From Tangfeifania diversioriginum (lineage in GTDB: Bacteria > Bacteroidota > Bacteroidia > Bacteroidales > Prolixibacteraceae): a DNA stretch of 64,000 nucleotides. The translations under genes and the position numbers were made by a program. The notes below the pieces were generated by a model, which was not told the origin of the DNA, ran no database searches, and saw only the letters and a program-made list of their open reading frames with translations. Shown here piece after piece: positions 24,251 through 40,025 of the stretch (positions are counted from its first letter, which is position 1; each line of letters opens with the position of its first letter). Where the stretch lies: contig NZ_FQZE01000016.1 in NCBI RefSeq assembly GCF_900141875.1, positions 1-64,000 on the forward strand. Reading direction: 5' to 3'.

Positions 24251-24991
24251 TTATTTTATTTCAGTATCCTCCAGCGATTCAACATCGTCGCTGTAATAAA
24301 TCTCCGCAATGAAAAAATCTGTATTTTCACAATGCACCTGAATTTTTTCCATGGTTTCCCACCATCCAAAAAACAGAAACCTGAAATAGCCGTTTTCGGT
24401 GATTCCAGATTTGATGTATATTTCGTCTTTTCCAAAAAATTGTTTTAGCTGGTACTCGAGCTGATAATAAAGTGCCCTTGCCACTTTTCTTTCGGGTTTG
24501 AAAAATACCAGGTAATATTCGGGCGAGGCATTTTCTTCTATTTCAATAGTATCTGAATCATCAAGCGGATTATCATCCAGCCTATCGCCGGGAATGATTA
24601 TCCCGTCATCGGTCATAGTCAGCGAATCGAGGAATTCTCCAACTTCAGAGCCGGGCAACCTGTATTCGGGATTGAAAATATTCATATCAATAATCTCTTT
24701 TATTTTTCCTGATTTCTGCCCAACCGACGAGGAATTGGCGTTAAAAAAACCGCAAACATCACTCAGTGTTGCGTAGGGTTCAAACGATTTGTCGCCCAGG
24801 AAATTTGTTCCTCCAACCGCCCAAACAATAGCAGCAGACCAAATTTCAGTTTTGCCTCTTTTAAAAATGAGTTTATCTTTTTTGAGCAAATCAGTAAACA
24901 CTTTCGTGCATATTTTTAAATAGTTCTCATCGAGGTGGTTTTTGCAATAGGTGGTAACCAGTTGTTTTACATCTTCGTTTTTTTGCTCCAT
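24251..24991 (-). CDS. DUF6398-like protein of unknown function
   Basis: A 246-residue soluble protein. The first ~115 residues (CTKVFTDLLKKDKLIFKRGK, VGGTNFLGD, LSDVCGFFNANSSSVGQKSGKI) look like DUF6398, a domain often found near the C-terminus of other proteins. The NSSSVGQKSGKIKEII stretch could form a helix-turn-helix. The rest is acidic and ends in DDVESLEDTEIK. It sits between rdgB and the leader-distal end of the CRISPR array and is not a known Cas protein. Neighbourhood gives no function. Confidence 0.6.
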   Translation of the reverse strand: MEQKNEDVKQLVTTYCKNHLDENYLKICTKVFTDLLKKDKLIFKRGKTEIWSAAIVWAVGGTNFLGDKSFEPYATLSDVCGFFNANSSSVGQKSGKIKEIIDMNIFNPEYRLPGSEVGEFLDSLTMTDDGIIIPGDRLDDNPLDDSDTIEIEENASPEYYLVFFKPERKVARALYYQLEYQLKQFFGKDEIYIKSGITENGYFRFLFFGWWETMEKIQVHCENTDFFIAEIYYSDDVESLEDTEIK

Positions 24992-25112: not shown

Positions 25113-25137
25113 GCGATTAATCGCATCTGTACAGATG
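25113..25137. repeat. two overlapping perfect palindromes at the distal end of the array
   Basis: GCGATTAATCGC (25113-25124) and CATCTGTACAGATG (25124-25137) are both perfect palindromes sharing one base. The second runs into the first G of the last repeat. Transcribed leftward from the array, they would form consecutive hairpins directly after the final repeat. Confidence 0.7.
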
Positions 25138-26986
25138 TTTCAATCCTTGTTTTGCTGGAATCGGAATCTGAAGGGTAAATATTGAAAGCCGGGAAAAGCC
25201 TGCAGTCGAGTTTCAATCCTTGTTTTGCTGGAATCGGAATCTGAAGGCCGAGGTAATAACCCAGCGACGAATTGCGGTGAAGTTTCAATCCTTGTTTTGC
25301 TGGAATCGGAATCTGAAGCCAGGCTTTATTGAATGCTTTTTCGGCACTCTTGTGTTTCAATCCTTGTTTTGCTGGAATCGGAATCTGAACCAAGTCCTCG
25401 TTGTTTTGGCGGTTGAATGTCGGGTAGTTTCAATCCTTGTTTTGCTGGAATCGGAATCTGAACTAGTAATTTCTTTTTGTGTGTTGGCAAAAAAAACTAG
25501 TTTCAATCCTTGTTTTGCTGGAATCGGAATCTGAACGTGCTCATGATGGCCGAAACAAAAGCCATGGAACGTTTCAATCCTTGTTTTGCTGGAATCGGAA
25601 TCTGAACAAAACCGGCAGGCGCTTGTTACCAAATGCACCGAGTTTCAATCCTTGTTTTGCTGGAATCGGAATCTGAACTCACCGAGGGGGCGGGCTCGGA
25701 GTCAATCGTTAGATGTTTCAATCCTTGTTTTGCTGGAATCGGAATCTGAACTTTATGGCGTGTTAGCTCCACGCGGCTTTCTCAAGTTTCAATCCTTGTT
25801 TTGCTGGAATCGGAATCTGAACCCCAGTCGGGCGAAAGGAACATGGTATCGCCGTCGAGTTTCAATCCTTGTTTTGCTGGAATCGGAATCTGAACTTTGG
25901 ATTGTTTTGGAGTTGTATTCCATAGGTGTGTTTCAATCCTTGTTTTGCTGGAATCGGAATCTGAACGGTCGTCGCCCCCTATTTTTACCTTCCAGTTTCC
26001 TTTGTTTCAATCCTTGTTTTGCTGGAATCGGAATCTGAACGATGCTTTGGGGGAATGTGAAGGGCTATGAAGTGGGTTTCAATCCTTGTTTTGCTGGAAT
26101 CGGAATCTGAACGAATTTTAGTTCACCTTTAAAACTATTTGAAGGGTTTGTTTCAATCCTTGTTTTGCTGGAATCGGAATCTGAACAACACTTTACCCGA
26201 ATGTTCAGGGTGCTGTAATTTTGTTTCAATCCTTGTTTTGCTGGAATCGGAATCTGAACGGCGACATCTGTTGAGGCAACTTTCAGGGAATCCCCGTTTC
26301 AATCCTTGTTTTGCTGGAATCGGAATCTGAACATTAAACCGCGGGAAGGCGTTTGCCTGACCTTTGGGTTTCAATCCTTGTTTTGCTGGAATCGGAATCT
26401 GAACCCCACAATGTCCACCTTATAGCCATGCAAAAGGATTGTTTCAATCCTTGTTTTGCTGGAATCGGAATCTGAACAACTGCAGTTGCGTTTATTACAA
26501 GCTGCTCGCCAGGGTTTCAATCCTTGTTTTGCTGGAATCGGAATCTGAACCATCAGTTTTCAGAATGAAAATTCCGTCAACGTCATGTTTCAATCCTTGT
26601 TTTGCTGGAATCGGAATCTGAACCGGACAGGGGTTGCAGGAATGTTGACAATATTATCGTTTCAATCCTTGTTTTGCTGGAATCGGAATCTGAACTTTTT
26701 AAGCTGATAGAGAAATTCAGATTCGGTACTGGTTTCAATCCTTGTTTTGCTGGAATCGGAATCTGAACCCGGCTACCTCGACCACGTGGTGAACGACGAG
26801 TTTGGTTTCAATCCTTGTTTTGCTGGAATCGGAATCTGAACAACTTTCAGAAGAGATAGGGTCATTAAAGGAACAAAGTTTCAATCCTTGTTTTGCTGGA
26901 ATCGGAATCTGAACGCACATTGAACAAAAGAAATGGATTGTTGATGCCTGTTTCAATCCTTGTTTTGCTGGAATCGGAATCTGAAC
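25137..26986 (-). CRISPR. type I-B CRISPR array, 26 repeats and 25 spacers
   Basis: Twenty-six copies of a 37-bp repeat are spaced 71-74 bp apart, giving spacers of 34-37 bp. On the plus strand the repeat begins GTTTCAATCC and ends GGAATCTGAAC; on the minus strand it therefore ends in ATTGAAAC, the canonical type I-B crRNA 5' handle. The array is thus inferred to be transcribed leftward with its leader at the right, beside cas4, matching the direction of the cas genes. The three leftmost repeats (25137, 25210, 25282) carry one substitution at the last plus-strand base (G for C), as expected for old leader-distal copies. The other 23 look identical. Many in-frame readings across the array are artefacts of the repeat. 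Confidence 0.97.
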
Positions 26987-27180
26987 GCGTTAATCGCTGT
27001 AAATTCCTGAACACAAATCTACTAAAAGTTTTTTATCTACTATTATATTTCCTTTTTTCAACATGTCAAAGAACTTTTTTTGGCTTTTTTTGGACCATTT
27101 CCGAAAGCATAAAATTTTAGTTATCAAACTTTTATTATTCATTTCTGTGCTATTATAAATAAATTACAACCCGGAATACA
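26987..27180 (-). promoter_or_regulatory. CRISPR leader
   Basis: A 194-base, strongly AT-rich stretch lies between the newest-end repeat and the stop of cas4. On the plus strand it has long T-runs (CTTTTTTTGGCTTTTTTTGG). Position, composition and repeat orientation make it the leader containing the array promoter and the integration-guiding sequence. Confidence 0.7.
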
Positions 27181-27753
27181 CTATTTTGTGCAAATATTCC
27201 GGTAGGTGCAAGTTAAGCAACGTTTCTTGTATTTGGTAGCTTTGGGATAAACATTTCCTTCAACAATTTTATTTATTTCATTGATACATCTTTTCACTTC
27301 CTGTTTATCGGTATCCGAAATATCAATTTCAACCAGTTTGTTATTACTGCGGGTATAAACCAGAAATCCTTTTTTTACTGTATTCCCAAAATTTTCTTCT
27401 ATCAGACAGGCGTAACAATAAAGCTGGGTTTTGTAGGTGGAATAAATTTTCTCTTTGTACTGTGCAAATTTGTAATCGAGGGGTGCCATGCTGCCGTCGT
27501 CGAGCAACAAAACCTCATCAACTTTTCCTCTTATCGAGTCGTTTGTAAGATACTGGTCGAGCCATTTCTGTTTTACGCCAATCCGCTTGCGCAGGTATTC
27601 TTTATTTTGTGCCAGTTTTAAATCATGAACATTTCGTCCTTTCTCTACTTTAAAGTGCCGTCCTTCGTATTGCGGTATGGCCAACACGTATTCAAACCAG
27701 GTAAAACGCGGGCAAAACAAGTATTCGATAATATGTGAAGGCGTTACAACCAT
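27181..27753 (-). CDS. cas4: CRISPR-associated nuclease Cas4
   Basis: A 190-residue RecB-like nuclease that trims prespacers and helps select PAM and orientation during adaptation. The four iron-sulfur cysteines are present: Cys14 (YLFCPR) and Cys179, Cys182 and Cys188 (RCLTCTYRNIC). The PD-(D/E)xK core is visible as GKVDEVLLLDDG and PLDYKF. It is the gene nearest the leader, 3 bases downstream of cas2 in transcription order. Many I-B loci place cas4 before cas1; here the order is cas1-cas2-cas4. Confidence 0.93.
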   Translation of the reverse strand: MVVTPSHIIEYLFCPRFTWFEYVLAIPQYEGRHFKVEKGRNVHDLKLAQNKEYLRKRIGVKQKWLDQYLTNDSIRGKVDEVLLLDDGSMAPLDYKFAQYKEKIYSTYKTQLYCYACLIEENFGNTVKKGFLVYTRSNNKLVEIDISDTDKQEVKRCINEINKIVEGNVYPKATKYKKRCLTCTYRNICTK

Positions 27754-27756
27754 ATC

Positions 27757-28047
27757 TCAGAAAAAAAGGGCTTTTACCTCGTCGGTAATTAGTTTTTTAT
27801 CGAAAGCCTGCCCCAGCAGGGCCGATTGTTTCAGTTCGTTTTTGCTCATCGGAAAAATATAAACCGAATCGTTTTCGGTGTCTATCCATTCTTCAATTTG
27901 CAAATGGAGTGTATCTTTTTGGTTTTCGTCGAGCGAGCCAAGGAACACGCTTTTTTGCACGCGGTACAACCCGGCCTGCTGGCAGGCTTTGGCAATTTTG
28001 GTGCGGGGCTTTGTTTTCTGAATGTCGTAAATTACCCAAACAATCAT
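27757..28047 (-). CDS. cas2: CRISPR-associated protein Cas2
   Basis: A 96-residue ferredoxin-fold Cas2 that dimerises and bridges two Cas1 dimers in the integration complex. The first strand with the conserved Asp is clear (MIVWVIYDI), followed by RTKIAKACQQAGLYRVQKSVF. The C-terminus is slightly extended beyond the core (QAFDKKLITDEVKALFF). It is spaced 3 bases from both cas1 and cas4. Confidence 0.95.
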   Translation of the reverse strand: MIVWVIYDIQKTKPRTKIAKACQQAGLYRVQKSVFLGSLDENQKDTLHLQIEEWIDTENDSVYIFPMSKNELKQSALLGQAFDKKLITDEVKALFF

Positions 28048-28050
28048 ATT

Positions 28051-29043
28051 TTATGCGTTTAAAATTTGTTGCGCCAGTGCATGTGCATCTAATTGCAGAA
28101 TATTGCTACGCGACTGGTTTCTGTTTTTATAGCGGATTTTTTCTTCGTCGAAAAACTTAAAGAAGTGCTGAACCAGCAACGCCTTGCCTTCTGTATTCAG
28201 GGTTACACCGTTGGTAATGGGCGATGTGTGACTGTCGTTTACTTTTTTGGCCGAAAACAGTTTGAAAATTACTTCGTCGGCCCAGGTGCGGTAAGGTTCA
28301 ATAAAATCGAACACCATGCTTTTTTTGTTGTAATCGTCGCGGTGAAGAATGCCCACAAACGGGTCGAGTCCGGCCACAATCAGCGCTTTTTCTACGCGGC
28401 TGTACAAAATTCCGTAGGCATAATTCAGAAAAGCGTTGAACGGGTCGGTTGCCGGGCGGAAGCTGCGCCCGCTGAATCGGTATTTTTTGGCAAGTAATTT
28501 ACTTAGCACCCCAAAATAAATGCGCCCGGATGTTCCCTCAATTCCGCGGAGGGTATCGGCTATTTCGTCGGTTTTTTCTGCTTCGAGTGCCTGGATTTTT
28601 CCGGCCAGTTCTTCTATCCTGTCAATTTCCGGCTGCAATTCATCTGCTTTTTGTTCGCGGTGTTTTTTCAGGCGTTTCAAAAATTCAGACTGGTTTTGAA
28701 GCTTGCTCCCCACCAGGTGTTTGATTATTGTTACACCCTGTTTCCCCATGCTGGTTTCCAATTGTTTTTTGCGGATGCGCGTGGTACTGCCCAACCGGCT
28801 GTGCCAGAAACGCCCCACCGGGAACCCATCGCGTTCGAGCACCACTATATCGATGTTGTTTTTCATGGCCAGAATAATAGCATCGGAACTGACTGCCGCT
28901 CCTTTCGACAAAAGAATGGACGTGATTTTTTGGGAAGCGACGCACTGTTTCCGCGGCGGATTGTCTTCCACCGGCACACGTACCTCGAACATGTCGTCTT
29001 TCACATGTAGGTAAGTTCCCCAGGTATTAATGATTAGTTGCAT
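28051..29043 (-). CDS. cas1: CRISPR-associated endonuclease/integrase Cas1
   Basis: A 330-residue Cas1, the spacer integrase. The presumed metal ligands are Glu169 (RGIEGTSGRIYF), His234 (GILHRDD) and Glu249 (DFIEPYR), assigned by motif. The N-terminal beta domain and a long helical stretch (about 115-160) are normal for type I-B. The coding sequence is GC-rich: the line at 28801 has 34 of 60 G or C, in sharp contrast to the effector genes at 31-36.5 kb. Confidence 0.96.
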   Translation of the reverse strand: MQLIINTWGTYLHVKDDMFEVRVPVEDNPPRKQCVASQKITSILLSKGAAVSSDAIILAMKNNIDIVVLERDGFPVGRFWHSRLGSTTRIRKKQLETSMGKQGVTIIKHLVGSKLQNQSEFLKRLKKHREQKADELQPEIDRIEELAGKIQALEAEKTDEIADTLRGIEGTSGRIYFGVLSKLLAKKYRFSGRSFRPATDPFNAFLNYAYGILYSRVEKALIVAGLDPFVGILHRDDYNKKSMVFDFIEPYRTWADEVIFKLFSAKKVNDSHTSPITNGVTLNTEGKALLVQHFFKFFDEEKIRYKNRNQSRSNILQLDAHALAQQILNA

Positions 29044-29053
29044 AGTTATTATT

Positions 29054-29713
29054 TTACGGTATTTGCATTACTGTTCCAAAACCGCGGCTAACCGCTTTGC
29101 CGATTCCGGCATAACCCGGCAAAAAAGCGTTACACGAAAAGCGTCCTGCAAAAGCAATCATTTTTTTGTCTTTAAACAGGGTTTGTTTTTCGGTAAAAGC
29201 CCCGTTCACCAGAATCCGGTCTTCCACCCTGAACCCAACACCCTTGTAAAAACTGAGGATATTGTTTTGAACCGTTTTATCGAGAAAACCTTTTTTCTCC
29301 GGTTCAGGTAATTCAAGGTAGTGCTGAAAATTTTTCTGGTTTAGCCCCATCCACAACGTTTTAAAAGTGAAGTTGTATAATCCTTTGTTCACCGAAAGTT
29401 CATGGTTTTTCTGGCTGATGTTTTTTGAAAAAACAGGATAAGTTTCTGCCCCTATTCTGATTTCCTTAATTTTCAGAAAAAGTTCGGTGAGCAGATGGGC
29501 GCCTTCGGAAAATCCAATTAGCGCCGGCATGTTATCCACTACTTTGTATTGAATTAGCGGATAGGCATACCGCAACCGGCCATCTTCGAAGTGGTTGTGC
29601 AAAAGGGGAGAATGTTCGCGGAACAGATCACCAAAGTAACCGCGCAGTTTGTGGGCATCGCGCGTGGTTAACGAAATTTCGGGGAACCGGATAATAGTTT
29701 GAGTTAATTGCAT
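29054..29713 (-). CDS. cas6: CRISPR-associated endoribonuclease Cas6
   Basis: A 219-residue RAMP protein that cuts pre-crRNA within repeats, leaving the 8-nt ATTGAAAC handle. The C-terminal glycine-rich loop (YAGIGKAVSRGFGTVMQIP) is diagnostic. The gene is 10 bases upstream of cas1 and shares its higher GC content (line at 29521: 31 of 60). In the usual order it would lie close to the effector genes, but a transposase and palindromic repeats separate it from cas3 by 1.2 kb. Confidence 0.9.
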   Translation of the reverse strand: MQLTQTIIRFPEISLTTRDAHKLRGYFGDLFREHSPLLHNHFEDGRLRYAYPLIQYKVVDNMPALIGFSEGAHLLTELFLKIKEIRIGAETYPVFSKNISQKNHELSVNKGLYNFTFKTLWMGLNQKNFQHYLELPEPEKKGFLDKTVQNNILSFYKGVGFRVEDRILVNGAFTEKQTLFKDKKMIAFAGRFSCNAFLPGYAGIGKAVSRGFGTVMQIP

Positions 29714-29728
29714 AGCAGTTTGTTTTTG

Positions 29729-29859
29729 TCAGGCTCGCGCCTGATGATTGGCCTGGGACGATGCCCCAGGTTATGATATGGCAGGCTTTCAGCCTTACCC
29801 GGGGCTGTGCCCGACTTGGGACGATGCCCCAAGTTGTGATATGTCAGGCTTTCAGCCTG
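29729..29859. repeat. REP-like palindromic cluster next to the transposase (copies A and B)
   Basis: There is a TCAGGC-TCGC-GCCTGA hairpin (29729-29744), then copy A (29751-29796) and copy B (29814-29859). Each copy has a G-rich hairpin around GGGACGATGCCCC, a short linker (TTATGATATG or TTGTGATATG) and a second hairpin AGGCTTTCAGCCT. Copies A and B differ at a few bases, some of them compensatory (CCTGGG/CCCAGG versus ACTTGGG/CCCAAGT), as expected for conserved structure. Confidence 0.85.
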
Positions 29860-29860
29860 T

Positions 29861-29883
29861 GGAATGAATTTTCTATTCATTCC
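29861..29883. repeat. hairpin covering the transposase stop codon
   Basis: GGAATGAAT and ATTCATTCC form a perfect 9-bp stem with a TTTCT loop. The right arm encodes the last residues of the transposase and its stop codon lies at the loop edge. It could end transcription or be part of the recognised palindromic unit. Confidence 0.6.
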
Positions 29884-30331
29884 AGAAATAGTTAGGATCA
29901 TACTCAATGATATCATATTGCCTGACGAATTCTTCAACTTCTTCACGGAATGTATGTATTCCGTGATGTTTCTTTTGATTTGCAATGTAGCGTTTTACTA
30001 CATCGACTTTTGAGCTGCTAACCGAAAAAGCGCCGTAGCCTATCTGCCATTTGAACAGCTTTGTGCCGCCCTCGATGGTTTTTATCCATTTTGAGGATTC
30101 TTTTTTGACTTCTTCCACAATTTTTGCCAGTGCATAATTCTTTGATAACCTGAAAAGAATATGCGCATGATCGGGCACGGAATTGATGATTAATGCCGGA
30201 CTTTCATATTCCTTCAGTGTTCCTGCCAGGTAGGCGTGTACTTGTTTTTCGATGGCCGGAACAAGGTAGGGAATTCGTCTTTTTGTGCCGAAAACGAGGT
30301 GAATATACATTTGCGAAAGCGATTGGCCCAT
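29873..30331 (-). CDS. REP-associated tyrosine transposase (IS200/IS605-like Y1, RAYT)
   Basis: A 152-residue Y1 transposase. The HUH motif appears in VPDHAHILF and the catalytic Tyr in VKRYIANQKKHHGIHTF. Single-copy Y1 proteins flanked by palindromic repeats instead of IS ends are RAYTs, which bind and nick REP sequences. Copies of such repeats lie on both sides here (29751, 29814, 30563, 30657). It sits inside the cas operon between cas3 and cas6 and in the same direction, so the upstream cas message must read through it or cas6-cas1-cas2-cas4 must have another promoter. Confidence 0.88.
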   Translation of the reverse strand: MGQSLSQMYIHLVFGTKRRIPYLVPAIEKQVHAYLAGTLKEYESPALIINSVPDHAHILFRLSKNYALAKIVEEVKKESSKWIKTIEGGTKLFKWQIGYGAFSVSSSKVDVVKRYIANQKKHHGIHTFREEVEEFVRQYDIIEYDPNYFWNE

Positions 30332-30562
30332 AACAGGTGGATTTTATTTGTATTTATGATATTTTCTGCAGCATGGCAGGATAACCGTAATGATAGTTCG
30401 ATATGGGAAGATGTTCAGACCCGGATCGGCAGGCAGACCGGGCCGCAGTGCGCTTACTGCGGGTAGCAGACAGCCTTGGGCGATGGACAGTCATGAAGGA
30501 GCGTGCTGCCATGTAGAGGTGCGTTGACATAAGATAGGGATCTGGCCTAGAGTGGTTCCCCG
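30332..30562. other. non-coding, GC-rich structured stretch upstream of the transposase
   Basis: No convincing gene is seen. The part from about 30410 to 30480 is much richer in GC than its surroundings and contains a perfect hairpin CCGCAGT-GCGCTT-ACTGCGG (30443-30462) and CCCGG/CCGGG arms at 30421-30441. It may be decayed palindromic repeat or the leader of the transposase gene. Confidence 0.5.
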
Positions 30563-30608
30563 GCCTGGGACGATGCCCCAGGTTATGATATGTCAGGCTT
30601 TCAGCCTG
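30563..30608. repeat. REP-like palindromic unit, copy C
   Basis: Almost identical to copy A at 29751: a hairpin around GGGACGATGCCCC, the linker TTATGATATG and the hairpin AGGCTTTCAGCCT. It is in the same orientation, on the other side of the transposase. Confidence 0.85.
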
Positions 30609-30656
30609 AAGGGAAATGGAGAGCACCCGGACCAGATACACTGCTCTGTAACCCAA

Positions 30657-30723
30657 AAGGCTGAAAGCCTTTGACAGCAAAACTATGGGCATCGCCCATA
30701 GCATAACCGGGCTAAAAGCCCGA
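30657..30723. repeat. diverged REP-like unit, copy D, inverted
   Basis: Three small hairpins occur in series: AGGCTGAAAGCCT, CTATGGGCATCGCCCATAG and CGGGCTAAAAGCCCG, joined by GCATAACC. This is the reverse arrangement of copies A to C with diverged but still self-complementary arms. A further AGCCTGAAAGGCT hairpin lies near 30779. The remaining sequence up to cas3 (30724-30937) holds no gene I can support. Confidence 0.75.
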
Positions 30724-30937
30724 AACTCCCCGCCCGGCGCCGGCCCACTTACATTACCGACCATCATCTGATAATCAGCCTGAAAGGCTGAAATAATAAT
30801 TGCTCTTTTTAATCGCATCTCTTTCATTTTCTCATCCAGGTTTTCCCGGATATTATAACATAAACACCGCCTCGTCTTTTTGCGGGGTGCGGATGAAGCC
30901 GGTTGTTGTGTTGTAATAATCATCTATGAAATATTCA

Positions 30938-33172
30938 TTATATGATTATTGTAGAATTATTACCGTTCTGATTATTAAACACTAACCCAACGTCATTAAA
31001 ATATGTATAGTTAACATACTTAAATCCATCAGAATCGGAAGGCGCTTTAGCTGCCATATAACGTTTTCTGTTAATCGACAATTCAAATTTCACTTTTTCA
31101 TGCTTTTGTAATTTCTTAGTCTGAAGTTCTTCATAAAACTGAAATGGAATAACACTTACAGTATCCAATCCATCTCTTGTCATCGCTTCCTCACTATTTG
31201 AAGGGCAGTCTCCTAAAAAATAATAAGTGGATTGAACGTTGTAATAAGCCTTCCAGCCATCCTTAAATGATAATCTTTGGGTGACATCGATATCTTTGTA
31301 AACTTCATCCACAAGGTTTAGAAATTCACCTTCTGTTATTTTCGAATAATGATGCTCTGATAAAACTCTAAATGTTTTATCTAGAATGTCTGTTTCTGTA
31401 TAAACAAATTCTTCTGAAACTTTTGAATGTTGATGGACAATTACTTTGCTATCTTTTTTAGAATTTCTTATTCGGTTGATTCTTCCTGCTCTTTGAACAA
31501 TTGCATCAACTGGGGCATTTTCTGTAAAAAGAATATCAAAATCAATATCCAAAGAAACTTCAACAACTTGTGTAGCTATTAATAAAACTGGTTCTCCTTT
31601 ATCTTCTATATATGAAATTTGACTTTCAATATTCTTACGGTCTTTCTGAATGAATCTCGAATGAAAGCAAATGCAATTCTTATTTATTTTCTCTGCCATT
31701 GGCTTCAATTGTTGATAAAGTTCAATAGCCTGATCCACTGTGTTTACTACCACCAATACTTTTAAATAATTTCTTAATGCAATTTTTATTTCATGAATAT
31801 TTTCCTGAATGGTAATTTTACGTATCTCAAAAAGGTTTCGACTTGATTGCAATAACTCAGCATCCTGAATCAAAGAATAATTGCTTTTTCCGCCAAGTGC
31901 TTCGTTCAACAAACTCCTTAACTTCGACGGCATTGTTGCCGACATGATGAAAAAACGGGCATTTAGTTTTTCCCGCAAGAATTTTATGGTTTGAAGAATT
32001 AATGCCAGCGTATAAGGAGAATACAAATGTATCTCATCAATAATTATACTGGCATTTCTGCAATGGAAGCTTTTAATCTCCCAAAAACCTAAATTAAAAC
32101 CTTGTGTAAGCAATTGATCAATAGTGCAAACAGTAATATTACTGAAAAATGTTCTATCTCTGAGGTATTTTCTTGTATCGTAATTATTGTCAATTTCTTT
32201 TTGGTACAAAAGAGCAGAGGAATGAACTACCGAACAATTTTGATTCCCAAAATAACCTGCTAGACGTTTGTAAATCGCATTGGATGTAACACGAGTTGGA
32301 AGGCAATAAATAATTTTATCATATTCATTCTTTTGCGACGCCCAGATCAAACTGGCTTCCGTCTTACCACTTCCTGTCGGTGCTATAGCTAGAACATTTG
32401 AATTTTTTTTACTTTCAAGTTGAAATTTTCGGAAAGAGAGTTTATCGATTTTCTTTCCTTCTTTTTCTAACTTTTCCTGCAAAGCATCCAGAAGTAAAGT
32501 TTCATCAAAAAGAAATGATTTTGATAAATTAAAATGACCTGATGCTGACCAATCTGAGATATTAAGTACTGCTTTTGCATTGATATATTCGAGGCGAGAT
32601 TTTTCGTTCCATAGTTGCTTATTTAAATCATAAAAAGGCTGAAATACTCTCGACTTGTAATCATCCGGATTAAAAACTGAAAGTTTCTGTAATGTACCTT
32701 CTCTTATTTGCGCTTGTATAGTGTCCTTTTCCTTTAACTTAAACGCTACATATTCAAACCATGCTTTAATAAGTTCATAATTTAACTCAAGCTTTTTAAA
32801 TTGATGGTTATCAAAAAGTTCACTATTTAAATGTTTATGATGTGAATAAATAGCTGCTGCAAATTGTGATTCCTGTTTTAGAAATGACTTACAAAAATAT
32901 AGGCAAAAAGCTCCTGACAATAATTCATGCCTCACATTCTCATATTTATGTCCACTCAGCATTCGCTGGAAATTATCAGAAATCTTTCCTGCGTCATGAA
33001 ACAAACACATAATAAATGCACTCTCCCAAAAAGTTTCAGGAAGTTCTGGATATCGCTCCTGCAGTTTCAGTAAAGATCGCAAAACATTTTCAGTATGTTC
33101 TACAAGTGTTTCAGATTCAACTTTACCCGAATTTTTATCCTTTTTGTATTTTGCTAAAACGTGATCAAGCAT
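30938..33172 (-). CDS. cas3: CRISPR-associated helicase/nuclease Cas3
   Basis: A 744-residue Cas3. The HD nuclease domain comes first (His26, HD pair at 59-60 in CLFHDAGKI, SHHKH later). The SF2 helicase follows: APTGSGKTEASL (Walker A, about residue 268), IIIDEIHLYSP, MSATMP and QRAGRINR. It degrades target DNA after Cascade recruitment. It starts 2 bases after cas5 and ends 0.6 kb before the transposase. The sequence is AT-rich (line at 31501: 18 of 60 G or C), like cas5, cas7 and cas8. Confidence 0.95.
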   Translation of the reverse strand: MLDHVLAKYKKDKNSGKVESETLVEHTENVLRSLLKLQERYPELPETFWESAFIMCLFHDAGKISDNFQRMLSGHKYENVRHELLSGAFCLYFCKSFLKQESQFAAAIYSHHKHLNSELFDNHQFKKLELNYELIKAWFEYVAFKLKEKDTIQAQIREGTLQKLSVFNPDDYKSRVFQPFYDLNKQLWNEKSRLEYINAKAVLNISDWSASGHFNLSKSFLFDETLLLDALQEKLEKEGKKIDKLSFRKFQLESKKNSNVLAIAPTGSGKTEASLIWASQKNEYDKIIYCLPTRVTSNAIYKRLAGYFGNQNCSVVHSSALLYQKEIDNNYDTRKYLRDRTFFSNITVCTIDQLLTQGFNLGFWEIKSFHCRNASIIIDEIHLYSPYTLALILQTIKFLREKLNARFFIMSATMPSKLRSLLNEALGGKSNYSLIQDAELLQSSRNLFEIRKITIQENIHEIKIALRNYLKVLVVVNTVDQAIELYQQLKPMAEKINKNCICFHSRFIQKDRKNIESQISYIEDKGEPVLLIATQVVEVSLDIDFDILFTENAPVDAIVQRAGRINRIRNSKKDSKVIVHQHSKVSEEFVYTETDILDKTFRVLSEHHYSKITEGEFLNLVDEVYKDIDVTQRLSFKDGWKAYYNVQSTYYFLGDCPSNSEEAMTRDGLDTVSVIPFQFYEELQTKKLQKHEKVKFELSINRKRYMAAKAPSDSDGFKYVNYTYFNDVGLVFNNQNGNNSTIII

Positions 33173-33174
33173 GA

Positions 33175-33885
33175 TTAAATTGAAAATAATGGAATTTGTA
33201 TTTCTTTGTATATCACACCTCGTTTTGATAATCCTTTAATATGTACTCCGGAACCTATAAATGAAAACTCTTTTCGCTTGACAACTTTTCGTACTCCATA
33301 ATTTGAATCGTATTCAAAAGCTACCGGAATTTCGTAACTTAACGGATCTATTCCATCTTTTAATGAAAATTCCAATCCATTGGGTTGGTCCAAAACTTCA
33401 TTCATTATATTTCCTTCTACCAGACAGTTTTTTAGTTCATTACATTCTATAAAATCTTTGATAACAGAAACTTGTATCACTTTTGCCAGTGAATCTGAAT
33501 TACCTAATGTTAATGCGAAAACTGGGTTTTTAAAAGCCTGTTGTAACTTTTCGATTTTAGATTGATTCTCAGAGACAAGAGCCAGAACGAAAAGACCATT
33601 AAAAAGTATTTCACGAGTCAATATATCCGAAATAAATGCTTTACCTTTTAATTTTTGGTATTTCCATAAATCATTTGATTTGCCACGTGTATAACCGCTT
33701 ATTCCAAATTCGAATTCCGATTCAAAAAAATCCTGACTTTCTTTAGGGCTCAAACCTAAAGCTGCTCCTGCCAACCCAATTAATGTGGTTGGCGGAGGCA
33801 GCTCATACGTTTTATGGAAGTTTTGAAATTCCGGATTTCGAAAAGAACAGCTTTGACATGCTAATTCAATTATTAAACATTGCAT
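33175..33885 (-). CDS. cas5: CRISPR-associated protein Cas5, type I-B
   Basis: A 236-residue RAMP subunit capping the crRNA 5' handle in Cascade. The N-terminus shows the Cas5 pattern: hydrophobic strand (CLIIELACQSCSFRNPEFQNFHKTY in sense, first strand and loop), then PPPTTLIGLAGAALGLS. Three bases separate it from cas7 and two from cas3. Subfamily assignment to I-B rests on the Cst1/Cst2-type neighbours. Confidence 0.88.
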   Translation of the reverse strand: MQCLIIELACQSCSFRNPEFQNFHKTYELPPPTTLIGLAGAALGLSPKESQDFFESEFEFGISGYTRGKSNDLWKYQKLKGKAFISDILTREILFNGLFVLALVSENQSKIEKLQQAFKNPVFALTLGNSDSLAKVIQVSVIKDFIECNELKNCLVEGNIMNEVLDQPNGLEFSLKDGIDPLSYEIPVAFEYDSNYGVRKVVKRKEFSFIGSGVHIKGLSKRGVIYKEIQIPLFSI

Positions 33886-33888
33886 TTT

Positions 33889-34806
33889 TTATTCTTTGTA
33901 ATGTTTGTCTATCCAATTTCTGATCCTTTCGAAACCTTCACTTAACGATTGCATTTCATCGCTATTCCTAAAGATGGCAGATTGCCCAGCTAAAACATAC
34001 TCTTCTACAAATCGATCATAGTCCGATGCCACCTGATTAAGTTCTGCTATGTTAATTTTATTATTATCAACCACTTGCACTGCTTCAAGAAAAATCGGAT
34101 TTTTCGCTTTCATGTAAGCTGCAGCCACAAATTTTGGAGAAATATCAGCCAAAAAACGTGTTTGCCTTCCGCTTGACCATAAATTTTGAAATGCATCTAA
34201 AAACCCCAGAACTCTTTTCTTTTTTTCTTCTGAAGAGAGTTCACCATCCTCTTCAAATCCCTGTCCACTGCCAATCCGGTCTAATTCAATTAAAACGGTT
34301 CCTTTGTAAAAACCGGAATGAATTTCAGTTTCAAAAATATTGGGTTGAATATCTTCCCCTTTGGCTGTTTGGTGTCCCTTACCCATAAAATTGGTAGCAT
34401 AATCCAAATCACCTTTGTATGAAGAAAGTCCCAGCAAACTTTCAACCCGAACCGGAGAAATTCGGATGGTGGATTTTCCCTTCTCCCCATCTTTACCTGG
34501 TGAAGCATCCATATAACCGAATAAATCATCATCAATGAATTCAACGGGATTCATCATGGTTTTTGGAGCTCCTTTTTTAGCGCTTGCTTCCTGGATGTTT
34601 GAAATATTCCATCCCAAAGATTCAAGCTGGTTACGAATTGCTCTTCTTATTGCCTGCGAAGAAACATAAGGAAGTTGTTCTTCATTGGCTAATGTTACTT
34701 TTTTAATGGGATTGATGTTGTCCACTTCCTTATCTGCTCCATTCAAAGAAGCAAAGGATACTTTACTTAAGTAAGTAATTGTAATACTGTTTGGTTTTAA
34801 TTCCAT
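33889..34806 (-). CDS. cas7: CRISPR-associated protein Cas7 (Cst2/DevR family)
   Basis: A 305-residue backbone subunit of Cascade. The start is typical of Cst2/DevR (ITITYLSKVSFASLNGADKE) with the SSQAIRRAIRNQLESLGW helix after the first strands. Six or so copies normally coat the crRNA spacer. It starts 2 bases after cas8 and is followed by cas5 after 3 bases, so the three are tightly coupled. Confidence 0.9.
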   Translation of the reverse strand: MELKPNSITITYLSKVSFASLNGADKEVDNINPIKKVTLANEEQLPYVSSQAIRRAIRNQLESLGWNISNIQEASAKKGAPKTMMNPVEFIDDDLFGYMDASPGKDGEKGKSTIRISPVRVESLLGLSSYKGDLDYATNFMGKGHQTAKGEDIQPNIFETEIHSGFYKGTVLIELDRIGSGQGFEEDGELSSEEKKKRVLGFLDAFQNLWSSGRQTRFLADISPKFVAAAYMKAKNPIFLEAVQVVDNNKINIAELNQVASDYDRFVEEYVLAGQSAIFRNSDEMQSLSEGFERIRNWIDKHYKE

Positions 34807-34808
34807 GA

Positions 34809-36548
34809 TTATGCAGTTTTTTCGGTTTTTTTAATTGGCTGAATGGCCGGATTTAAAATATTTAATGCTCCTATTATTAAGAATTGTTTAATGCTGTAAT
34901 AATTCTGTTCATTGATTTTACCGGCTAATTCTTCGTTAACAGTTAAACCATATTTAAAATCAATGCGAATGAGTTCATCCAAAAACTGTTTTTGGGTTCT
35001 GGCTTTGCGTAGGGTAATCAAATCCCCACGTCCTCTTTTTGCATTTGCAGCTTCACTTTGAGAAGCATCCTGGTGTCGCATTTTAACACCAATTTGCTTT
35101 CCAAGTGTAATGGCCGCGTTCTGAAGTGATTCTTCCATAGTTTTAATTTTTAATTCATATAATTGGGTAAATAAAAAAAGTTGTTTAAAGTCTTTAAATC
35201 CTATTGGTTCATTAATGCAGAGGTAATTATAACTTCTGAAAAACAAATCTTCAATTGATGGCAGGATACTTTTAAGTTCCAGAATTTCCCTGCTTATTTG
35301 ATTACGTAAAATCCGTTCAAGCCGATATTTATTACTTGCTGCCCTCTCACTTGGTTTTAATAGTTTCAAACTCGATAAAAAGCGACTAAAAACAATTCCG
35401 CTTTTTTCGACATCATGAAATAATTTAAACAGGGGTGTGAGCCTGTTAAGATTTTCGTAAGTATTTGGTCTCATTGTAGAAGCGAAACTTTCCGCTTTAA
35501 AAGATTCAATTGCAAGTGGTGGAATTTTTGTCATTACTTCTCCAAATAATTCATCGTCTGCAAATTGATTTTCTGAGATATTACCATATTTTAATATCGC
35601 TTTCTTGTACATGGAATATATCAATGCAATTGCAACTTCAAACTGTTCAGTAAATGAGTCTTTCTCAATTTCTTCAGCAAATTTTATATTGCTAACAAAT
35701 TCCTTTTTCCTTAATACTGGTGTTGAATCCTGAATTTCTATTTTACTGATTAATTCATTAAGATTTTTTAGGTTGTCAGAAGAAACTAAATAGATATGAA
35801 TTGTGTCACGCAATTTATTAGAGTAATGATAGTAAGCATTTACAGGAGAAAACATACTTAGGTATCTGGTTTTCCAACTTATTTTTTTGTCACCTGCTGA
35901 CAAATAAGAGTTAAAATTAAATAACCCCGAAAAGAAAGGAGAGATATTTGTAACATCAACAAGTTCATCGTAAGACTCTCCTGTAAGATAGCATTTTCTG
36001 TCCCCTTCATTTAAAAAACTTTCCTTTAGTTTTGGTATTCTGGTAATCTTTGTATAAGGCTCATAGTAAAGTTTACTCAGTATTTTTAATCCAGAAGTTT
36101 CAAAAAAATTTACAAATTTTGCGAGTTCTTCCGGATCGCTTTTTTCCAATTTTTTAGCATTTGTCCAACCTTTTTCATGCCTTGTTACACCTTGCGCATT
36201 GTTGGTTAACAAATGAGTTAATCCATAGGTGTACATTCTGGGAAATGGAAAGAACTTATTTTCTGCACGATCATAAAAGATGTTACATTCTTGAAACTTT
36301 TCAGCATTTTCTTGCTGTTTTATTGTATAAGTATCATACACTTCTTTTCCCATCCAATAGTAAATATCATCTAATAACTGTGGAAGCTTGTCAGAAGTAA
36401 TCGTCAATTTATTATTTGTAAGTTCAAATTCAAATGGGAAATCGAAAAAATCTTCATTCTTTGCTTTAACGAGATATTTATATAACCCTATTATCCCATT
36501 GTTTAAAAGTGTGTGTCCGGTTCTCTTAAATTCAATCTCGGTTATCAT
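34809..36548 (-). CDS. cas8b1: CRISPR-associated protein Cas8b1 (Cst1-like large subunit)
   Basis: A 579-residue large subunit that recognises PAM and recruits Cas3. The N-terminus (TGHTLLNNGIIGLYKYLV) and the region around KCYLTGESYDELVDVTNISPFF resemble Cst1 proteins. Many Cst1 members carry CXXC pairs; here I see one Cys at that place and no pair, so a zinc site is probably lost. It is the first gene of the minus-strand cas operon. Composition is AT-rich (line at 35701: 16 of 60 G or C). The call depends strongly on the position before cas7. Confidence 0.82.
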   Translation of the reverse strand: MITEIEFKRTGHTLLNNGIIGLYKYLVKAKNEDFFDFPFEFELTNNKLTITSDKLPQLLDDIYYWMGKEVYDTYTIKQQENAEKFQECNIFYDRAENKFFPFPRMYTYGLTHLLTNNAQGVTRHEKGWTNAKKLEKSDPEELAKFVNFFETSGLKILSKLYYEPYTKITRIPKLKESFLNEGDRKCYLTGESYDELVDVTNISPFFSGLFNFNSYLSAGDKKISWKTRYLSMFSPVNAYYHYSNKLRDTIHIYLVSSDNLKNLNELISKIEIQDSTPVLRKKEFVSNIKFAEEIEKDSFTEQFEVAIALIYSMYKKAILKYGNISENQFADDELFGEVMTKIPPLAIESFKAESFASTMRPNTYENLNRLTPLFKLFHDVEKSGIVFSRFLSSLKLLKPSERAASNKYRLERILRNQISREILELKSILPSIEDLFFRSYNYLCINEPIGFKDFKQLFLFTQLYELKIKTMEESLQNAAITLGKQIGVKMRHQDASQSEAANAKRGRGDLITLRKARTQKQFLDELIRIDFKYGLTVNEELAGKINEQNYYSIKQFLIIGALNILNPAIQPIKKTEKTA

Positions 36549-38557: not shown

Positions 38558-38902
38558 TTACTCTTTCAGTTTCTGATTATTTTGATGACGCTCTTTGTCG
38601 CGGCTGGTTTTCTTTTCCAGGTTTTTGAGAAATGCCTGGTTTAAATCCACACCGGTTTGGTTGGCCAGGCAAACCAAAACCCACAGCACATCGGCCATTT
38701 CGTCGGCCAAATCGTATTTTTCATCCGATTTCTTAAACGACTGATCCCCGTATTTCCGAGCCATAATTCGCGCCAGTTCGCCCACCTCTTCGGTTAAAAC
38801 GGCCATATTGGTAAGCTCGCTGAAATAGCGGACTCCATAAGCTTTTATCCAATCATCAACCAGTTGCTGGGCTTCATATATAGTAGTTTGTTTCTTATTC
38901 AT
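38558..38902 (-). CDS. MazG-like nucleotide pyrophosphohydrolase
   Basis: A ~114-residue all-alpha NTP pyrophosphohydrolase. The metal-binding motif appears as EEVGELAR and LADEMADVLW (ExxE, then ExxD). Family members clear non-canonical nucleotides such as dUTP or oxidised dNTPs. ATG at 38902 is preferred over an upstream TTG. It overlaps the stop of the DUF4143 ATPase gene by 8 bases, so it is probably translated from the same message. Confidence 0.85.
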   Translation of the reverse strand: MNKKQTTIYEAQQLVDDWIKAYGVRYFSELTNMAVLTEEVGELARIMARKYGDQSFKKSDEKYDLADEMADVLWVLVCLANQTGVDLNQAFLKNLEKKTSRDKERHQNNQKLKE

Positions 38903-40025
38903 GCTCAATAAATTGATAAAAATTATTATGACTGATTATCGCTGACCTATTTATCTTATACACATCTGAAAACGCCTTTGGAATTTTAAATTTTAATTTC
39001 TGATTCCATTTAAACTCATAAATATCAAGCTCCCCATCACACTCTTCAATATAATCAATTTCACTTTTTTGATGAGTTCTCCAAAAATAGGTATTTGCCT
39101 TCCTAAGATTGTAGTGATTTGATTTCTGTCTTTCAACAATAATGAAATTCTCCCACAAAGCACCTTTGTCATTTCGTAAATCCAACGGCCTGAAATCATT
39201 GATTAATGCATTTCGGATTCCTGTATCCCAAAAATAGATTTTAACTTTTGAAGATAACTCTTTTCTTAAATTTCGGCTGAAAGGTGGGAGCCTAAAAATA
39301 ACAAAAGCTTTTTCAAGCAAATCAATATAATGAAGAATAGTTTTTCTGTCGATTTGTAAAAGATTAGACAGCTCATTGTATGAAACTTCACTTCCAATCT
39401 GAAAAGCAAGAGCTTGTAATAATTTTTGAATAAACTCAGGTTTCCTTATTTGCTGATATTCAAATATATCTTTATAAAGATAACTTTCTGATAAATTAAA
39501 CAATATTTCTTTTTCAGCTCCCAGGTTATTTATTACATCCGGATACATTCCAAAAATGATACGCTGATTAAGCTGAGAAACAGATTCTAAAAAATTGGTG
39601 TGAACGACCAGCTCATGCCATGAAATGGGGAATAATCGGTATTCAAATTTTCTTCCCGTTAATGGTTCATTTATATTACTGGAAAGCTCAAATGCTGAAG
39701 AACCTGTAACAACAAGCTGAATATCTGTAATCTCATCAACAATAATTTTCAGCAACATTCCAACATCCTTAATTCGTTGGGCTTCATCAATGAATATTAG
39801 CTTTGCTTTGCCAAAAATTTGCTTTAGATAATTTATTGAGGGCTTCGCTAATTGTTCGCGGATATTCGGAATGTCAGCATTCAAAAAAAGTGCATCGGCT
39901 TTACTGCTATGAGAAATTTTTTTGATCAAGGTTGTTTTCCCAGTTTGACGAGCACCTAAAATAATTATAGCCTTACCTTTGTTAAGCTTCCTTTTGATTA
40001 TTGTTTCAAGAGATCTGTCAATCAT
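38895..40025 (-). CDS. AAA-type ATPase with DUF4143 region
   Basis: A 376-residue protein of the common AAA_14/DUF4143 type. Walker A is GARQTGKTTLIKK (about residue 25) and Walker B is LIFIDEAQRI; a sensor-like TGSSAFEL follows. A winged-helix segment (SYNELSNLLQIDRKTILHYIDLL) lies near residue 225. The C-terminal part looks like a PD-(D/E)xK nuclease fold (SEIDYIEE ... DIYEFKW). These genes are abundant and mobile-like in prokaryotes with no agreed role. Two identical 18-bp interrupted palindromes lie directly upstream, which suggests autoregulation. AT-rich compared with its neighbours. Confidence 0.85.
   Translation of the reverse strand: MIDRSLETIIKRKLNKGKAIIILGARQTGKTTLIKKISHSSKADALFLNADIPNIREQLAKPSINYLKQIFGKAKLIFIDEAQRIKDVGMLLKIIVDEITDIQLVVTGSSAFELSSNINEPLTGRKFEYRLFPISWHELVVHTNFLESVSQLNQRIIFGMYPDVINNLGAEKEILFNLSESYLYKDIFEYQQIRKPEFIQKLLQALAFQIGSEVSYNELSNLLQIDRKTILHYIDLLEKAFVIFRLPPFSRNLRKELSSKVKIYFWDTGIRNALINDFRPLDLRNDKGALWENFIIVERQKSNHYNLRKANTYFWRTHQKSEIDYIEECDGELDIYEFKWNQKLKFKIPKAFSDVYKINRSAIISHNNFYQFIEHE

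Follow-up and report, generated by a model that had tools for sequence, protein, structure and literature searches.

What is a gene for a Y1/HUH transposase-like protein, bordered by palindromes, doing between cas3 and cas6 of a CRISPR-cas operon? The question is raised by a 64,000-nt stretch of the Tangfeifania diversioriginum genome (positions 1 to 64,000 of contig NZ_FQZE01000016.1, hereafter the window), which belongs to contig C34 of a 4.78-Mb, 81-contig genome. The original prediction had described a RAYT transposase with its REP family inside a CRISPR-cas operon, and no description of such an operon harbouring a RAYT or Y1 gene came up in a literature search. The operon, of type I-B, is read from the minus strand in the order ORF in the cas8 position, cas7, cas5, cas3, Y1 gene, cas6b, cas1, cas2 and cas4, with a CRISPR array beyond the cas4 end (Table 1). 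The predicted 152-aa Y1/HUH gene between cas3 and cas6 was confirmed (Pfam PF01797, Y1_Tnp; 87.5 bits, E 9.7e-25), as were at least four palindromic units of the same design around it, to which a remnant can be added. The feature is real and well built, comprising a TnpA subclass 1.2 HUH gene and its own two-hairpin repeat family.

Table 1. Features of the cas operon and of the Y1 cassette in the window.
Feature	Position	Strand	Basis or remark
CRISPR array, repeat GTTTCAATCCTTGTTTTGCTGGAATCGGAATCTGAAC	25137-26987		extent from tandem-repeat finder
cas1, cas2, cas4 (adaptation genes)	27181-29043	-	Pfam, NCBIfam
cas6b	29054-29713	-	Pfam
cas3-cas6 slot, occupied by the Y1 cassette	29714-30937		cas3-cas6 distance 2 nt in Y1-free G366 and G359 (family) and G020 (outside the family)
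Unit A: G-rich hairpin, linker, AGGCT-TTC-AGCCT hairpin	29749-29798	+	covariance model, folding
Unit B, nearest downstream of Y1 gene	29812-29861	+	covariance model, folding
Y1/HUH transposase-like gene, 152 aa	29873-30331	-	Pfam, NCBIfam; motifs DHAH, WQ, YIANQKKHH
Unit C, nearest upstream of Y1 gene	30561-30610	+	covariance model, folding
Unit D, inverted relative to C, perfect 8-bp first hairpin	30655-30704	-	covariance model, folding
Second-hairpin-only remnant CAGCCTTTCAGGCTG	30776-30795	-	model R2, 20.1 bits, E 0.0013
cas3	30938-33172	-	Pfam, NCBIfam
cas5, cas7 and ORF in cas8 position	33175-36548	-	Pfam, NCBIfam

Neither Pfam nor NCBIfam matched the 579-aa ORF in the cas8 position, and no Rfam family reached its gathering score anywhere in the window. 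Two further frames, of 189 aa (30354-30923) and 93 aa (29704-29985), both cross hairpins and were judged spurious. When the window cas3 was searched against 395 genomes of the class, only its own copy matched at E 1e-100, indicating that this interference type has few sampled relatives there. A DUF6398 gene (24251-24991) adjoins the CRISPR array, and another (L187:8474-9202) occupies the cas3-cas6 gap in genome G402; DUF6398 is thus a candidate CRISPR-linked gene. An ORF of 376 aa (38895-40025), situated 2.3 kb upstream of the cas operon, resembles an AAA-ATPase by eye and may be compared with the AAA_14 gene found as slot cargo in relatives.

The class of the Y1 protein was judged by motif, profile, fold and copy number. 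Its tyrosine motif follows Y---Q--HH, which Quentin et al. 2018 (PMC6006769) give as the signature of TnpA subclass 1.2, and departs from Y---NP, their signature of class 2; Y---Q--HH is present in 65 of the 67 rows of the set used for the Y1 tree. The NCBIfam IS200 model scored 58.3 bits, above its curated cut-off of 55, and the class 2 model REP_Tyr_transpos scored 21.2 bits, below its cut-off of 80. An AlphaFold model (pLDDT 89.4) matched IS200/IS605 TnpA and TnpAREP structures in the PDB, the best by E-value being IS608 and ISDra2 TnpA (2xma, 2vju; E about 3e-9, TM-score 0.59-0.61), with E. coli TnpAREP 4er8 at E 1.4e-5 and TM-score 0.60. Since the TM-scores are alike (mostly 0.55-0.63 for IS200-type structures) and the rmsd is lower for 4er8 (2.9 versus 5.9 and more), the fold alone cannot separate IS200 TnpA from TnpAREP. 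The genome holds six full Y1 genes, the other five being 30-42% identical to that of the window, in addition to a Y1 gene that is split (C30) and, within a long frame of C49, a short Y1_Tnp match. Such low copy number and low within-genome identity are as in subclass 1.2; the several near-identical copies per genome of IS200/IS605 subclass 1.1 were not seen, the next full copy being 42% identical, and the ordinary IS200 that had been named as an outcome overturning the prediction was not found in its multi-copy form. No match to the window Y1 was obtained from a phage collection (E limit 1e-15), and a plasmid collection (E limit 1e-20) gave a single record, from Persicobacter, at 46% identity.

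The table of PMC6006769 enters subclass 1.2 as REP 'no', and the paper describes typical IS200 structures as generally absent from it, but palindromic units adjoin the Y1 genes of the window and its relatives. As that table records the absence of REPs without defining the subclass by it, the window Y1 can be kept in subclass 1.2 by sequence. Judged by motif, it is a TnpA of subclass 1.2 and not a class 2 RAYT; of the predicted 'RAYT inside a CRISPR-cas operon', the Y1/HUH gene with cognate palindromes therefore stood, and the class 2 assignment fell on the subclass 1.2 motif and the sub-threshold REP_Tyr_transpos score.

Each unit is built of a G-rich hairpin, a TT-TG---T-like linker and an AGGCT-TTC-AGCCT hairpin; A and B lie downstream and C and D upstream of the Y1 gene, all at most 375 nt from it. 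The exact second-hairpin motif, AGGCTTTCAGCCT, has four copies in the window, every one at the Y1 gene, and eight matches against 1.09 expected when up to two mismatches are allowed. For three of the four units, none of 200 shuffles folded as well (z -4.2 to -5.5), and folding of unit A was moderate (z -1.7, with 12 of 200 shuffles equally good). GT[AG]G, the foot of class 2 REPs, was found at the 5' foot of one of 94 units and in the linker of four. With a first covariance model, built from the four window units, copies turn up next to the Y1 gene, usually on either side of it, in almost every relative to as low as about 60% protein identity. Over 67 distinct rows there were 130 both-side changes, compared with 27 in shuffled and 8-23 in slid controls, which bears out the compensatory differences first noticed between the window copies, in an alignment that was fitted to the structure, which favours the result, and whose rows are related. 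Both stems covary, with 96.4% of cells paired and both-side changes in 12 of 13 pairs. At 86 Y1 loci the density of perfect stems was 3.32 per kb in the nearest 300 nt, compared with 0.32 for the stretch 900-1400 nt away and 0.11 for shuffles, a count in which at least one gene is present twice under two ids and 29 of the 86 loci have no stem.

At E <= 0.01, units were absent from the Y1-free cas operons L184, L186, L187 and L177 and from the cas operons with other Y1 genes, L182, L178, L226 and L189; the unit follows the Y1 lineage, not cas. This bears on the reading of the palindromes as attenuators or processing sites in the RNA of the cas operon, with the Y1 gene a bystander, which could draw on the 1.2 kb and four two-hairpin units found here where three empty operons have 2 nt, and on one terminator-like site within unit D. 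We consider it most improbable, as the units accompany the Y1 gene in non-cas loci, were not found in the four Y1-free operons, and terminator-like sites are not above shuffles (2 versus 2.5). Promoter-like sites numbered 9, against 5.0 (sd 2.2) in shuffles; the Bacteroidota-type promoter follows the pattern TANNTTTG, which had 3 matches where 3.7 were expected.

Whether the units form a dispersed family depends on the genome. In the window's own genome (150 of 1268 candidates scored), only the four window units exceeded 25 bits, the next best being 23 bits at a sister Y1 gene on C37, followed by lower matches; among these candidates every strong copy lies at the gene, and the predicted REP family, as a dispersed family, was not recovered. 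A wider model was run over 23 genomes at E <= 0.01; as it scored 150 candidates in each, all counts are lower bounds. The five genomes with a cas-linked Y1 gave at least 8 (window genome), 4 (G403), 8 (G340), 3 (G321) and 18 (G300) matches. Of those in G300, four lie at the gene and 13 are weaker; among the matches listed, the strong ones distant from the gene in these five genomes are one in G300 (43.1 bits) and one in G340 (43.5 bits). Genomes whose window-type or related Y1 had no cas link within the flanks examined, several on short contigs, ranged from at least 80 (G035), 61 (G407), 53 (G408), 36 (G089) and 26 (G405), through 24 (G406), 24 (G378), 19 (G319) and 8 (G143), to at least 4 (G428), 3 (G275), 2 (G076) and 2 (G414). 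Dispersal is thus frequent among non-cas genomes but, as the low counts in G428, G275, G076, G414 and G143 show, not universal. Genomes in which this Y1 lineage was not found at E 1e-45 gave at least 2 (G379), 3 (G366), 2 (G359), 1 (G402) and 5 (G295). The many REPs dispersed in the host genome that characterize class 2 were thus found in several relatives and not among the candidates scored here. The prediction was to be given up if the unit were absent both elsewhere in the genome and in relatives; the first half held, but the unit is dispersed in relatives, so the clause as a whole fails.

Sixteen dispersed sites were picked from the match listing in five non-cas relatives (G407, G408, G089, G406 and G405). 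Thirteen held (-)(+) pairs, among them the tandem array L242; in 12 of these the unit starts lie 151-177 nt apart and in one 264 nt, and the remainder comprised two (+)(-) pairs and one single unit. Inverted palindrome pairs as the dispersed unit, the hallmark of REPINs, were accordingly found in relatives only and not seen in the window genome. Within a genome, G405 and G406 being compared with each other, doublets matched one another at 50-84% and their 75-nt flanks at 15-61%, a global alignment of unrelated flanks not being zero. A tandem array of two-hairpin units, in repeating (-)(+) pairs with some 261 nt apart, was observed at L242 (G408:C1:773000-775600). In the window genome, four of the other five full Y1 genes (L002, L004, L005 and L006) have palindromes of their own directly repeated on both sides, and L003 does not; these arrays are gene-specific and extend to 197 nt at 95%.

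The orientation of the nearest units, read along the gene, separates cas-linked from other copies. The outward arrangement (-)gene(+) was found in 15 of 16 non-cas genes with units found on both sides (L051, L055, L058, L059, L060, L061, L064, L074, L075, L168, L169, L172, L173, L174 and L175, L172 and L173 both being copies from a single genome), the exception being L052 (Natronoflexus), with (+)gene(-). Left out of this count were L002 (weak matches only), L057, L171 and L076, with units on one side (a downstream (-) unit in the case of L171, of G428), and L176, which lacks units nearby. Among cas-linked copies with both sides it was found in none of four, the window, G340 and G300 having (-)gene(-) and G321 (+)gene(-); in G403 the downstream unit is (-) and the contig ends upstream. 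The outward pair, the counterpart of the dispersed doublets, is therefore absent from four copies and the downstream (+) unit from all five, although, the five cas-linked Y1s forming one clade (94/56), the change represents at best one or two events.

The nearest named Y1 loci are from Prolixibacteraceae. Among 140 genomes of the family, 13 carry a window-type Y1 (E <= 1e-45) and 12 a window-type cas6 (E <= 1e-40); both occur in five genomes of five genera, such that the same Y1, which the original prediction had proposed seeking in other cas operons, is present in four further genomes: G403 (Mariniphaga sp. KA03), G340 (Prolixibacteraceae X3), G321 (Bacteroidia LacPavin) and G300 (labelled Odoribacter sp. 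SW.3.41). It lies in the cas3-cas6 gap in the carriers, and just before cas6 in G403, where the contig ends. The reading frame is intact in four of the five copies and frameshifted in G300, implying either that the gene is dispensable there or a misassembly. A different Y1 (36% identical) occupies the same gap in G379, giving five of 12 family operons with a window-type Y1 and six with any. Elsewhere the gap holds other cargo: an AAA-type gene (AAA_14 by Pfam) in G349, which also precedes cas6 in G343 (cas3 being off the contig), and, outside the family, a Schlafen/AlbA gene in G016 and two ORFs without Pfam match in G171; the DNA before cas6 differs again in G327. Corresponding pre-cas6 cargo was observed in related type I-B operons at L183:82-1266 (AAA_14 ATPase), L185:4335-5519 (near-identical to the former), L191:6008-7666 (Schlafen/AlbA protein) and L192:3210-4446 (two ORFs without Pfam match).

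Outside the family, other Y1 genes lie in the gap in G861, between cas7 and cas5 in G210, and between cas6 and cas1, with a broken frame, in G066. Those of G379, G210 and G066 cluster together, apart from the window lineage (99/66); the Y1 of G861, outside that tree, is 57% identical to that of G210, relatives of which occur in 114 of 393 genomes of the order (E <= 1e-38). A scan of 109 Y1 loci for the queried cas kinds found 11 with such genes, all from genomes already named, and 98 without, some genes being present twice under two ids and flanks often being 1.5 kb; none of 19 loci with a more remote cas6 (L113-L131) carried a Y1 within its 1.5-kb flanks. With seven Y1 genes per 4.78 Mb and approximately 11 kb per operon, even spread would place about 0.35 in 22 operons (the 12 of the family and 10 with cas6 at least 48% identical), and eight of the 22 hold one, through at least four entries, a rough estimate that ignores insertion bias and includes a window selected for the feature. 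Y1s have entered related cas operons repeatedly, mostly at the cas3-cas6 gap, so that the location, which had been flagged as notable, is more than a curiosity.

Between the window and G403, the one pair behind the Y1 dN/dS estimate, dS was 0.64 and dN/dS 0.067, a sign of purifying selection, values similar to those of cas6 (0.78, 0.089), cas1 (0.91, 0.084), cas2 (0.82, 0.055) and cas4 (1.37, 0.055), suggesting that the Y1 gene diverged roughly in step with the operon and under like constraint. Most farther pairs were saturated; between the window and G340 the Y1 dS of 0.94 amid saturated cas6 and cas4 would also fit later exchange. Identity to the window in G340, G300 and G321 was 81-85% for Y1 and 63-66% for Cas6 and Cas1. 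In a tree of cas6, cas1, cas2 and cas4, Y1 carriers appear at four places, requiring a minimum of four changes, and their grouping as one clade was rejected (AU p 6.4e-5, the group being the known carrier set and the test being run after the tree was seen); spread of the cas-linked Y1s with a single cas module was discarded on this ground. The split of window and G403 from G340, G300 and G321 is the same in this tree and the Y1 tree, so that both old residence with losses and repeated entry fit. The present distribution may reflect an ancient presence followed by losses, several independent entries at this gap, or exchange between operons. An apparent remnant of the first codons of cas6 was recognized by eye just after cas3 in L166 (G340) and L187 (G402). 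These sister genomes carry different cargo behind this remnant and before the full cas6, which points to exchange at the cas3-cas6 joint.

The evidence admits several readings besides our own. Were the cassette an ordinary, still mobile IS200-type insertion sequence that landed in the operon by chance, the IS200 score above cut-off, the closeness of the IS608 and ISDra2 structures by E-value and the entry of several different Y1s into related operons would be expected. We nevertheless consider this unlikely, as there is one copy whose next full relative is 42% identical, its synonymous divergence is similar to that of the cas genes, the outward unit pair has been lost, and, at the E limits applied, mobile-element collections yielded only the distant Persicobacter plasmid record and none from phages. 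A true class 2 RAYT whose REPs are scattered through this genome, for which the bordering palindromes, the REPIN-like pairs of relatives and the equal TM-score and lower rmsd of 4er8 could be cited, is very improbable given the tyrosine motif, the REP_Tyr_transpos score, the rarity of GT[AG]G in the units and the lack of dispersed strong copies among the 150 of 1268 candidates scored here; membership fails on motif and cut-off, and the function could be alike.

Alternatively, the Y1 nuclease could be a CRISPR accessory, recruited either to work on single-stranded DNA alongside Cas1-Cas2-Cas4 or Cas3 or for renewal of the adaptation module, with the hairpins as control or target sites. Its recurrence in the same slot of five of 12 family operons (another Y1 being in a sixth), the additional Y1s in G861, G210 and G066, the four intact frames out of five and its conservation in the slot, higher than that of Cas6 and Cas1, speak for such a role. 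However, the non-cas L051 and L052 are about as similar (80-81%), making this conservation a property of the lineage and not of the cas slot; six family operons lack any Y1, and AAA, DUF6398 or Schlafen-type genes fill the slot elsewhere; the inserts of G210 and G066 are positioned differently and one copy is frameshifted; and neither the 98 Y1 loci without queried cas kinds nor the 19 distant cas6 loci, within their 1.5-kb flanks, show the association. We regard this reading as decidedly unlikely. Comparably unlikely is the idea that two subclass 1.2 Y1 lineages recur in type I-B operons because the system profits from their nicking and joining of single-stranded DNA at hairpins, whether for integrating spacers beside Cas1-Cas2-Cas4 or for exchanging the cas6-cas1-cas2-cas4 module at the cas3-cas6 joint, the place of the apparent cas6 remnant in G340 and G402. 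A role of the Y1 protein in CRISPR function is possible.

The reading that we favour, and think reasonably probable, is that a REPtron-like cassette lost its mobility and has long resided, under selection, in an insertion slot. The single-copy subclass 1.2 protein would recognize its own flanking two-hairpin units as single-stranded DNA, and its fold and motifs suggest binding and cleavage at the hairpins. In relatives, outward units on both sides of the gene and scattered inverted pairs of the same geometry in several genomes suggest that the protein probably mobilizes, or once mobilized, such pairs. In the lineage that entered the type I-B cas3-cas6 gap, the downstream outward unit would have been lost, leaving few or no strong scattered copies among the matches listed; the cassette, presumably immobilized and of some benefit to the host, would then have been retained by selection as a resident, travelling with the cas operon by descent or by exchange.

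Two consequences follow. A subclass recorded without REPs in the table of PMC6006769 gains a cognate, covarying two-hairpin repeat family that exists in dispersed and confined states, and, as both states occur in one protein lineage, the transition from REPIN-like mobility to residence as a gene becomes open to comparison. The cas3-cas6 joint is a repeatedly used entry slot, which makes the possibility of an HUH nuclease aiding CRISPR a directly testable question.

Amongst known systems, the window Y1 recalls TnpA subclass 1.2 as described in PMC6006769, with Y---Q--HH, WQ, about 150 aa, low copy number and occurrence in Bacteroidota; it departs from the entry in that paper's table in the two-hairpin units that flank it and are dispersed in some relatives, and in an HUH motif of DHAH in place of DH[IV]H. 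With the IS200/IS605 elements IS608 and ISDra2 it shares the fold, the catalytic motifs and hairpins on both sides of the gene, but it has no near-identical further copies and its residence has been long. The outward-facing unit pairs of relatives, approximately 200-230 nt in length and situated at unrelated sites, are like REPIN or MITE-like inverted doublets, though no such pairs were seen as strong copies in the window genome. A parallel in organization is the REPtron of class 2 TnpAREP/RAYT, likewise a single-copy HUH gene bordered by palindromes, with inverted pairs in relatives and signs of domestication; the window cassette differs from it in its tyrosine motif, in a two-hairpin unit with a conserved linker that is here confined to the gene, and in the missing GT[AG]G foot, which, according to PMC6006769, the REPs of subclass 2.6 also lack.
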